From the NCBI RefSeq assembly GCF_036250065.1, contig NZ_CP109199.1, positions 4,712,001 through 4,776,000 on the forward strand: a stretch of 64,000 nt of DNA, in the 5' to 3' direction. Under the pieces are notes generated by a model, which ran no database searches, had not been told where the DNA came from, and saw only the letters and a program-made list of their open reading frames with translations. Shown here piece by piece: positions 44,701-50,227 of the stretch. This stretch comes from Micromonospora sp. NBC_01699. Its GTDB lineage: Bacteria; Actinomycetota; Actinomycetes; Mycobacteriales; Micromonosporaceae. Positions within the stretch are counted from its first letter, which is position 1, and every line of letters begins with the position of its first letter. The position numbers were made by a program, and so were the translations under genes.

Positions 44701-47700
44701 TGTCCCGTAGGTTGCGCCCCCAGTACGCCGCGTCCGCCCCGCCGTCGGGTAGCAGGCCCCCGGTGACGGTGGAGTAGAACGGCACGGTCGCCGCCCGGCA
44801 GACGATCGACGCCACCTCGCCGGTGAGCGCGTCGGCGGTCGCCTCCATCTGCGCGGTGTGGAACGCGAAGCCGGTGTTCCCCGCCCGGTGACGGATCCCG
44901 TCGGCGGCGCAGGCGGCCGTGAACGCGGCCAGCTCGTCCGGGTCACCCGCGACGACCACCGACGCCGGGCCGTTGATCGCGGCGATCTCCAGGCGGGCGG
45001 TGAGCCGGTCGCGTACCCGGTCGGGGGTGAGCGCGACCCACGCCATCGCGCCCTTGCCGGCGGTTCCCGAGTCGTGCAGCAGGCGACCGCGGGCGGCGAC
45101 GAGCCGGGCGGCGTCGGGCAGCGACAGCACCCCGGCCACGCAGGCGGCCGCGATCTCGCCCCGGGAGTGCCCGATGACCGCGGCGGGGCGTACGCCGAAC
45201 GACTCCCACATGGCGGCCAGCGACACGCTCACCGCGAACAGCGCGGGTTGCCCCACGTCGACCCGGTGCAGTGGCGGGGCGCCGTCCCCGCCGCCGATGG
45301 CGGCGATCAGCGACCAGCCCGTGTACGGCGCCAGCGCGGCCTCGCACTCGATCATCCGGGCGGCGAACGCGGCGGAGGTGTGCAGCAGTCGCGCGGCCAT
45401 CGTGGGCCACTGCGATCCCTCGCCGGAGAAGACGAACGCGGGAGCGGCGGCGGCCCGCCGGCCCCGCACGACGGTGGCGCAGGCGCGTCCCTCGACCACC
45501 GAGGTCAGACCTTCGAGCAGTTCGTCGCGGGTCCGTCCGAGCATGACGGCGCTGTGGGCGAAGCGGGTTCTGCTCGACGCCAGTGTCCAGCCGACGTCCA
45601 GCGGGTGCAGGTCGGCCGCCGCCCCGGCGAGCCGCCGCCCCTGTTCGGCCAGGGCATTCTCGTCGCGGCCGGACAACACCCACGGGACGAGTTCGGCGCC
45701 GGCCGCCGGCGGCGGCGCGGCGGCGGGTTCGACGTGCTCCAGGATGACGTGGGCGTTGGTGCCGCTGATGCCGAAGGAGGACACCGCGGACCGCCGGGGG
45801 CGGCCGGTCGACGGCCACGGGCGCGGTTGCACCAGCAGCTCGACCGCTCCGGCGGCCCAGTCGACCTCCGGCGACGGCTCGGTGACGTGCAGCGTGCGGG
45901 GCATCACCCCGTGCCGCATCGCCAGTACGGTCTTGATGACGCCGATCACCCCGGCCGCGGCCTGGGTGTGCCCGACGTTCGACTTGATCGACCCGAGCCA
46001 CAGCGGCAGGGCGGGGTCACGATCCTTTCCGTACGTCGCCAGCAGCGCCCGCGCCTCGATGGGGTCGCCCAGCCGGGTGCCCGTACCGTGCGCCTCCATC
46101 AGGTCGACGTCGGCCGGCGACAGGTCCGCGTCGGCGAGCGCCTGCCGGATGACCTGCTGCTGCGCCGCCCCGTTCGGTGCCGTCAGCCCGTTCGACGCGC
46201 CGTCGGAGTTGATCGCGGAACCGCGGATCACGGCCAGCACGGTGTGCCCGTTCGCCAGCGCGTCCGACTGCCGCTCCAGGACCAGCAGCCCGGCCCCCTC
46301 GGCCCAGCCGGTGCCGTCGGCGTCCGCCGAGAACGCCTTGCAGCGCCCGTCCGGGGCGAGCGCGCCCTGACGGGAGAACTCGACGAAGATGCCCGGCGTC
46401 GCCATCACCGTCACGCCGCCGGCCAGCGCGAGCGAGCACTCCCCCGTACGCAGGGCGCGCGCCGCCAGGTGGAGTGCGACCAGTGACGACGAGCAGGCCG
46501 TGTCGACGGTGATCGCGGGACCCCGCAGTCCCAGCGTGTAGGCGATTCGGCCGGAGTTGATGCTGCCGGAGGTGCCGGTCAGGCGCAGGCCGTCGGTGCC
46601 CTCGACCGGCTCGTGCAATCGGGGCCCGTACTCCATCGCGGTGGCGCCGACGTACACGCCGACCCGCTCGCCGTGCAGGCTCTCCGGGCGGATGCCGGCG
46701 TGTTCGAGGGCTTCCCACGAGGTCTCCAGCAGCAGTCGCTGCTGGGGGTCCATGGCCAGGGCCTCCCGGGGGCTGATGCCGAAGAATCCGGCGTCGAAGT
46801 CGGTCGCGTCGTCGAGGAACCCGCCGCGCCGTACGTAGCTGGCGCCGAGTTGGTCGCCGGCTTCCAGGCCGGTGAGGTCCCAGTCGCGGTCGGTCGGGAA
46901 GTCGCCGGTGGCGTCGAGGCCGTCGGTCACCGCCTGCCACAGGTGCTGTGGCGAGGCGATGCCGGCCGGCAGCCGGCACGCCATGCCGACGATCACGACG
47001 GGGTCGTCGCCGGTGGCCGCTCGGTTCGGGTACGCCTCGGCGGCCTCGGGTTCGGCGTCGCCGCCGTGCAGCCGCTGCCGCAGGTGGGCGACCAGCCGGT
47101 CCGGGGTGGGATGGTCGTAGACGAGCGTGTTCGGCAGCTCCAGGCCGGTGCTGTGCCGCAGCAGGTCACCCAGCTCGACGCCGGTCTGGGAGTCGAGCCC
47201 GAGTTCGTTGAAGGTACGCCCGGTGGGGAGCCCGTCGGTGCTCTCCCGGCCCAGCACCTTCGCGACCTGCACGTAGACGAGCTGATCGAGGTCATGGTCC
47301 GGCCGGGGCTCCGGCTCGGCGATGGTGGCGGGCGGGTCGGTGAGCCAGTGGCGGGTGCGCTGGAACGCGTACGTCGGCAGGTCGGTTAGCCGGGCACCGG
47401 GGAACAGGGCCTCGGGGTTCAGCGGAGCGCCGTCGCTCCAGGCTTCCCCCGGTGCGCTCAGGAAGCGGGTCCAGCCGCCATCACCGGGACGCGCCACGGC
47501 CCCGGCCGGCGACGTGTCGGTGTCGTCGTCGGCCAGTGCCCGCAGACCGTGGAGCAGCGTGTTCCGGTCGGCGCCGTAAACCAGCGCGCGGTGCTCGAAC
47601 GCCGTCCGCGAGGTCAGCAACGAGTATCCGATGTCGGCGGGCGAGACGCCGGGACGATCCCGCAGGTACGCGTACAGGCGGTCGGCCTGCCCGCGCAGTG

Positions 47701-49264: not shown

Positions 49265-50227
49265 ATGTCGCTGGGTTATCTGTTCGGTGGCGGTGTCGGG
49301 AGTGAGCCGCGCGGCGTCGCCCTGTACCACGGATTCGTCGGCGTGCGTAATCTTTATGAGCAGGTCGCGGAATGGACCGGGCTGAGCGTCGGGCAGATTC
49401 TGGAGGAGGATCTTCCCGAGGACGTCGAGATTCGGCAGAGCGTGGGTACGGTCCGGGAGTCGGTGCACGCCATCGCGGTGCACGACGTGCTCGCCGAGCA
49501 CGGGCTGCGGCCGTCGGTGCTGGGCGGGCTGAGCCTCGGCGGGATGTCGGCGGCCTGTCTGGCCGGGGCGATCAGCCGCCGCGCCCTGTTCGAGATGCTC
49601 GCGTACGCCCGCAACACCCCGGGGCAGCCGGTCGGCACCCCGGAGCAGGGACTGGCGCTGGCGTTCGAGCCGGCCACCGACAACACCGGCCACCATCGCG
49701 GGGCGGGACGCCCGGGGGTGTATCTGGCCGGGACGTTCGGGTTGACCACCGACGGCGCGACCCGCATCCTCATGCTCTCCGGCGAGAAGGCGGCCCTGGA
49801 CGCGCTCGCCACGGAGCTGCCGCAGGGTTCCGTGATCCCCATGCCCGGCCGCTCGATCGCCATCCACTCGCCGCTGCGCGCCGGCTTCCGTACGTTCATG
49901 GCGCCGTACATCGACGCCATGCCGTTCCAGGATCCCGGTCTGCCGCTCATCTCCTGCCTGGACCGCAGGGTGCTGGTCGCCGCCGAGGAGGTGCGCGACA
50001 TGTTCCACCGCAACCCCACCGACCCGATCAACCTCGTGCACATCTGCGAGGCCATGAAGGACGAGGGCGTACGGCTGGGCCTGGTGATGGGGGGATCCGT
50101 CCCGGACGGTGTCCTGCGGTTCCCGTTTCCGGTGGTGCACGTCGACCGTCCGGAGCACCTGGACCAGGTGATGACCACGGTGTTCGAACTCGGCATCGAG
50201 CTGGCCCCGGGACGGTCACCGCGATGA
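49265..50227 (+). CDS. Discrete (trans-acting) acyl-CoA:ACP acyltransferase, probable starter loader
   Basis: 320 aa from ATG 49265, with an AGGAAGG ribosome site. The fold is malonyl-transferase (FabD/PKS-AT)-like but divergent. The nucleophile motif is GLSLGG (Ser90), the second catalytic His is His201 in [11 protein letters not shown], aligned with HAFH, and Arg116 sits where ATs bind the free carboxylate of a dicarboxylic acyl group. The N-terminal GQGSQ motif is replaced by FGGGVGSEP. Ser, His and Arg together suggest an active enzyme for a malonyl-type substrate with a non-standard side chain. It is divergent from gene A, whose KSQ loading module lacks an AT, and overlaps the next gene by ATGA. 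I infer that it loads the starter ACP. An editing or decorating transferase is the alternative. Confidence 0.82.

Follow-up and report, generated by a model that had tools for sequence, protein, structure and literature searches.

We analysed a 64,000-nucleotide stretch of the genome of Micromonospora sp. NBC_01699 (NZ_CP109199.1, positions 4,712,001 to 4,776,000; hereafter the window), which lies within a single 8.28-Mb contig and carries the start of a modular polyketide synthase (PKS). The PKS consists of seven genes with 13 elongation modules, and all seven reading frames are open. KSQ starters, in which glutamine takes the place of the active cysteine of the ketosynthase (KS), are by the textbook units of KSQ, acyltransferase (AT) and acyl carrier protein (ACP), whereas the loading module at the front of the first PKS protein (A1) is a KSQ-ACP didomain. 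The AT between KSQ and loading ACP is really missing, and both remaining domains look intact. The features of the starter module are as follows (window coordinates; residues of A1).

41786 to 49042, minus strand: PKS gene A1 (2418 residues), KSQ-ACP loading didomain followed by module 1 (KS, AT, dehydratase (DH), ketoreductase (KR), ACP)
47780 to 49030, minus strand: KSQ domain, residues 5-421
48539 to 48541, minus strand: codon of Gln168, the KSQ active site (VDTGQSSS)
47498 to 47779, minus strand: retained KS-AT linker, residues 422-515 (PF16197/PF22621/PF22336; AlphaFold model element 437-505)
47477 to 47530, minus strand: approximate junction of the missing loading AT, residues about 505-522, from alignment to the loading module of a related cluster (L086) and 15 others
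47342 to 47497, minus strand: retained post-AT linker including [13 protein letters not shown], residues 516-567
47078 to 47281, minus strand: loading ACP, residues 588-655

A starter module without an acyltransferase

Gene A1 encodes one unbroken 2418-residue protein starting with ATG at 49042 on the minus strand. As stated in a preliminary description of the locus, Gln168 stands in place of the active cysteine within VDTGQSSS (residues 164-171), and the KSQ is followed by a linker remnant, the post-AT motif [13 protein letters not shown] (residues 555-567) and the ACP, with no AT; Pfam models, motif scan, alignment and AlphaFold all confirmed this arrangement. Residues 374-506 match the KS-AT linker models PF16197, PF22621 and PF22336, while the sole Acyl_transf_1 stretch of A1 (residues 1203-1519) belongs to module 1, and no G[HQAV]SxG AT motif was found in residues 1-680. 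The structure prediction of the linker that had been proposed earlier likewise gave no AT fold. In the AlphaFold model of the starter, which is of moderate quality (mean pLDDT 71.8), a linker-type element (437-505) and a short helix (524-536) precede the ACP, leaving about 80 residues between linker element and ACP where an AT needs about 300. A hidden AT in the starter linker is thus excluded by the Pfam models, the motif scan, the AlphaFold model and lack of space.

Fifteen other KSQ domains share 135 invariant columns, of which two are changed in the window KSQ; as the reference domains themselves depart at 0 to 11 such columns, the column count alone is not decisive. The highest reference value (11/146) belongs to the KSQ of L090, which keeps its AT. 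The phosphopantetheine serine motif of the loading ACP (LGLDSQTG, at residue 614) is intact and all 12 invariant ACP columns are kept. The starter module must be charged by an enzyme that is not part of it, and with KSQ and ACP conserved, malonyl loading from outside followed by decarboxylation to acetyl would be expected. This part of the preliminary reading, charging from outside the module, is retained, whereas the enzyme it had named for the task, a neighbouring discrete AT, is not (see below).

Origin of the AT-less starter

A counterpart cluster in another genome (G875, locus L086) agrees with that of the window in the order of its 13 modules and in its tailoring genes. PKS genes 2-7 of the two clusters are 72-76% identical, the discrete ATs 73.8% and the adjacent EhpF-like genes 78.4%. 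For gene 1, the best single segment reaches 64.6% over 2032 columns, owing to the AT gap; taken singly, its domains are 68-81% and its linkers 57-65% identical. The G875 starter carries an intact-looking loading AT (GHSLG, YAAHS) at exactly the position where the window has none. In the alignment, the gap in the window opens just ahead of FVFPGQG and closes just behind IGTLRRD; it spans the entire AT and stays in frame, so the starter has cleanly lost its loading AT.

The loading KS of G875 (L086:10345-13305; G875:C1:684345 on) has Asp for Gln (VDTGDSSS, Q168D) beside the intact-looking AT, its HGTGT motif has become HGAGD, and 13 of the 135 invariant columns are changed compared with two in the window. 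It is probably a degenerate KSQ. Each cluster thus seems to have given up the half of the starter machinery that the other retains, the AT in the window (with the KSQ kept) and the KSQ, by degeneration, in G875 (with the AT kept). The two form a natural pair on an otherwise same line in which the need for each starter domain is directly testable.

These differences also bear on the idea that the loader is bypassed, with the module 1 KS primed from the acyl-CoA or ACP pool, or that the line is idle or has yielded little since its AT disappeared. A domain lost without obvious replacement would fit, and the changed KSQ of G875 indicates that such a starter can lose parts. Nevertheless, we regard bypass or idleness as unlikely, because the window KSQ keeps 133 of 135 invariant columns on a short branch of the KSQ tree (0.119 compared with 0.328 for G875), all seven PKS frames are open and two other AT-less KSQ-ACP starters keep both the Gln and the ACP serine.

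Other KSQ starters lacking an acyltransferase

Those two starters come from a comparison of 28 KSQ loci, 14 from 354 genomes of the family and 14 new ones from 394 genomes of the class. An AT is present at 25 loci and absent at three (the window, L088 in G207 and L092 in G003), a ratio that is not a prevalence, as an AT-less query favours AT-less loci, the thresholds differed (1e-170 and 1e-165) and only three candidates per genome were scored. L128 was counted as having an AT, though this matched as two weak pieces only. In the KSQ tree the nearest relatives of all three AT-less starters carry an AT, so that the losses look independent; support is 0.998 for the window with G875, 1.0 for L088 with L120 and 0.901 for L092 with an AT-bearing group, while deeper branches are weak. 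Because three lineages have dropped the AT while retaining KSQ, linkers and ACP, malonyl for the starter step can apparently be drawn from another source. We found no description of an AT-less KSQ-ACP loading module in a cis-AT line in the available text of the literature searched (including PMC8302727, PMC6113372, PMC5082578, PMC11672594, PMC12648119, PMC8066444), most subscription papers lying outside this search.

In G207, an AT-AT protein lies about 27 kb from the AT-less starter, and the locus looks like one hybrid cis/trans-AT cluster. The window genome holds a comparable AT-AT protein (3395952-3397811; FabD 314.7 bits, over the cut-off) and, nearby, a further AT-like protein (3402131-3402958; 120.4 bits). 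They belong to a second cluster (L112/L113, G000:C1:3376001-3416000) that mixes cis-AT modules with these two proteins and looks like a hybrid trans-AT line. Either could in principle charge the starter, and the G207 arrangement speaks for this. We consider this improbable, given that the two clusters lie about 1.36 Mb apart in the window genome and that no discrete AT was found within 60 kb around the AT-less starter in G003, though FabD-like frames are present elsewhere in that genome. As a separate observation, the two modules that come next after the G003 starter have ATs (L092:4672-5577 and 9694-10599) with identical scores (300.2 bits), which suggests recent duplication or gene conversion.

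The discrete acyltransferase and its partner

Divergently from A1, two genes overlap by the sequence ATGA, the ATG of the second lying on the stop codon of the first.

49265 to 50227, plus strand: discrete AT, 320 residues, putative fumaryl transferase of the BafCII/Orf2 type, with Ser90 and His201
50224 to 51315, plus strand: EhpF-like adenylating enzyme, 363 residues, putatively of the BafCI/Orf3 type
49043 to 49264, unstranded: divergent intergenic region, 222 bp

The EhpF-like enzyme matches the EhpF structure 3hgu (E 3.4e-44). The discrete AT scores 34.1 bits with FabD against a cut-off of 260.9, is likewise weak with MdcH, and has sequence matches among FabD structures (3ezo, E 2.7e-7) and a confident AlphaFold model (89.7). 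Its AT fold is predicted from the sequence matches and the secondary structure of this model.

According to the preliminary description, this discrete AT would load a dicarboxylyl unit onto the starter ACP in trans and the KSQ would decarboxylate it. On such a reading, any fumaryl transfer would be a second job. The adjacency is as described, exactly 222 bp between the starts at 49042 and 49265 in opposite directions, and kinship to FabD together with the presence of Ser90, His201 and Arg116 in the window copy would suit such a role. We compared 28 discrete-AT loci, a different set from the 28 KSQ loci: the window, L086, 23 named loci, G064, G158 and G564. Second copies were not counted, nor were duplicates without a name that repeat a named locus. 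A single-protein scan had found no relatives while an alignment-based scan gave the 23 loci; an order-level search had matches in 2 of 200 genomes and no new locus. In the family alignment, Ser90 is present in 25/28 and His201 in 27/28, whereas Arg116, earlier called conserved, occurs in only 14/28. The Ser90 position aligns to Gly in the discrete ATs of L066, L068 and L070, which are possibly inactive or work differently.

A loading module is clearly in view at nine of the 27 loci besides the window, and all nine have a loading AT. The arrangement is KS-AT-ACP at L049, L050, L052, L069 and L086 and AT-ACP at L053-L056; the closest Streptomyces relatives (L049, whose reading frames are broken within the KS, L050, L052 and L069) have KSQ-AT-ACP beside the discrete AT, and L053-L056 have AT-ACP after it. 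In G875 too, then, discrete AT and loading AT occur together. Two candidates for AT-less starters near a discrete AT were set aside and stand outside the nine, neither being clearly a loading module: L071 has an N-terminal ACP-like stretch without the serine motif, and at G158 the nearest gene starts directly with a KS. Conversely, the stretches covered around the two other AT-less KSQ-ACP starters, L088 and L092 (80 kb and 60 kb), hold no match to this AT family.

Relative-rate counts after Tajima gave no significant difference between the window and G875 discrete ATs with any of six outgroups (chi2 0.02-3.60); the highest value (outgroup L055) comes close to 3.84, the 5% limit, with more changes on the window side. 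For the EhpF-like partner, chi2 was 0.02-2.00. A rate shift as a sign of a new job was therefore rejected.

An alternative job for such a pair is known from the available text of two reports on bafilomycin. BafCII (321 residues, annotated as malonyl transferase) and BafCI (360 residues, a putative CoA ligase) were assumed to activate and attach fumarate (PMC3679948). Orf3 makes fumaryl-AMP and Orf2 moves the fumaryl group onto the C21 hydroxyl; an S. lohii strain lacking both genes produced only bafilomycin A1 (PMC7827423). In keeping with this, L055 shows in a row an AfsR/SARP-type regulator, an O-methyltransferase, two ligases, a 5-aminolevulinate synthase (ALAS), the discrete AT, the EhpF-like gene and an AT-ACP starter, matching the kinds of genes in Table 1 of PMC3679948. 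Across the 28 loci, the EhpF-like gene is adjacent on one strand at 16, within about 6 kb at five, and absent or in pieces at seven. A close ALAS (70-82% identity) was found in two of nine discrete-AT genomes searched, G875 and that of L055, so the pair occurs also without C5N genes; a weaker one (35-37%) was found in four of the nine, the genome of L055 included.

The discrete AT and its EhpF-like partner thus most likely decorate the finished macrolide rather than load the starter. Loading in trans by the discrete AT is improbable, considering the AT-bearing loaders beside the same family at nine other loci, the lack of a family match near the two other AT-less starters, the published fumaryl role and the absence of a significant rate change; adjacency alone is a poor ground for giving it a loading role. 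As the bafilomycin starter owns its AT, the fumaryl role alone leaves room for a second job here. That one enzyme does both, decorating the macrolide and loading malonyl onto the orphaned starter ACP, we deem very improbable; if true, the line would have recruited one of its own tailoring enzymes for initiation.

Two arrangements in the family stand apart. At L062-L065 (Dactylosporangium), two tandem discrete-AT copies lie downstream of PKS modules, with no EhpF-like gene in the stretch covered. L052 of S. scabiei 87.22, probably the concanamycin region, has a KSQ-AT-ACP starter and discrete AT with the EhpF-like gene in pieces only.

The assembly line and a proposed course of synthesis

The remaining PKS features are listed below.

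41942 to 47005, minus strand: module 1 (KS 45713-47005, DH 43562-44362, KR 42461-42988, ACP 41942-42142)
44486 to 45436, minus strand: AT of module 1, residues 1203-1519 (GHSRG, FAFHT), candidate malonyl supplier
36279 to 41786, minus strand: PKS A2, module 2, KS-AT(HAFH)-DH-KR-ACP
22624 to 36279, minus strand: PKS A3, modules 3-5, corresponding by order to bafilomycin extension modules 1-3
7874 to 22609, minus strand: PKS A4, modules 6-8
1 to 7815, minus strand: PKS A5, modules 9-10, continuing past the window edge to -4223

Beyond A5 follow A6, A7 and then the methoxymalonyl and C5N genes (in L010/L009). Modules 3 to 13 are spread over five proteins of 3, 3, 2, 2 and 1 modules. The enoylreductase of module 10 is assigned from a gap of matching size, and the KR trace of module 5 is weak (14.9 bits). 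Genes for HCDH, ACAD and FkbH lie past the last PKS gene, along with an O-methyltransferase, two AMP ligases, an AfsR/SARP-type regulator and ALAS; FkbH (351 bits) and ALAS (539 bits) both score over the cut-off. The set is predicted to supply methoxymalonyl and the C5N unit. The substrate of an AT is read from motifs of the HAFH and YASH types. Modules 3-13 also fit the bafilomycin skeleton in how their reducing domains and AT motifs are ordered. Judged from its genes, the line is best read as one of bafilomycin/hygrolidin type that has two further modules and begins with a KSQ-ACP starter lacking an AT.

FabD can complement AT-null modules. As a whole, the explanation that we favour with moderate confidence is charging of the AT-less starter by FabD or the AT of module 1, decarboxylation by the KSQ and late fumarate tailoring by the discrete AT pair. 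A transferase outside the loading module, either housekeeping FabD or the module 1 AT in the same protein, would place malonyl on the loading ACP and the KSQ would decarboxylate it to an acetyl starter. Modules 1 and 2 (malonyl-type by motif, both DH-KR) would extend this to a dienoyl unit, which would pass into the 11 bafilomycin-type modules. The predicted product thus has a dienyl side chain derived from acetyl; in G875 the chain would be longer by one carbon, provided that the loading AT there (YAAHS) is of the methylmalonyl type. Later, the discrete AT and its EhpF-like partner would turn to fumarate, activating it and joining it through an ester to the finished macrolide, after which the C5N ring would be attached to the fumarate-bearing product. 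A FabD-like protein is present in the window genome (L129:4144-5373; 162 bits, below the cut-off of 260.9), 1.3 kb from fabF.

The loss of the AT, the intact state of KSQ and ACP, the kind of cluster and the gene pair itself are established. Several points weigh against the favoured explanation. Charging of the loading ACP by FabD or the module 1 AT is inferred only, as are the identity of the charging enzyme, the starter unit, the product and the job of the gene pair in this strain. The intactness of the KSQ could merely reflect a recent AT loss. Likeness to BafCII/Orf2 (ADC79629.1 in S. lohii) is one of size and gene context, and a FabD score of 34 bits indicates distant kinship only and is not decisive for the substrate of the discrete AT. 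Finally, the family is wider than the fumaryl role, with no whole EhpF-like gene in the stretch covered at 7/28 loci and the close C5N ALAS in 2/9 genomes.

Neighbouring genes

Just past the cluster edge, 51449-52078 of the window encodes a protein that looks secreted and has no Pfam match; 3.5 copies of a 126-bp tandem repeat lie in its gene, which is followed by a lytic polysaccharide monooxygenase gene (52186-52866). An open reading frame of 1355 residues (59557-63624) has no Pfam match at E 1e-6.

Comparison with known systems

Kirromycin is made by a hybrid cis/trans-AT PKS, and the window PKS shares with such hybrids, including the line in G207, an AT-less carrier domain in line with cis-AT modules. 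It differs in that all 13 elongation modules carry an AT and the cluster lacks a FabD-grade discrete AT, and AT loss as the mark of a trans-AT line was rejected for this cluster on these grounds. With the KSQ-AT-ACP loaders of actinomycete cis-AT PKSs such as ebelactone EbeA (PMC5082578), the starter shares Gln for Cys, the ACP and its place as the first domains of the first PKS protein, whereas it is AT-less and must be charged from outside the module. The line further resembles the bafilomycin clusters of S. griseus DSM 2608 (PMC3679948) and S. lohii (PMC7827423), with 11 extension modules split 3+3+2+2+1, methoxymalonyl and C5N genes, an AfsR-type regulator and the BafCII and BafCI pair in common. 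In bafilomycin, the starter counts among the 4 modules of the first PKS protein, and the later proteins hold 3, 2, 2 and 1 (PMC3679948); that line begins with an AT module assigned to isobutyrate, whereas the window line begins with KSQ-ACP and two extra DH-KR modules. The discrete AT and EhpF-like enzyme resemble BafCII/Orf2 and BafCI/Orf3 in size (320 and 321, 363 and 360 residues), in being adjacent and in lying in a bafilomycin-type cluster with C5N genes, and depart from them in that the discrete AT here is divergent from the starter gene.

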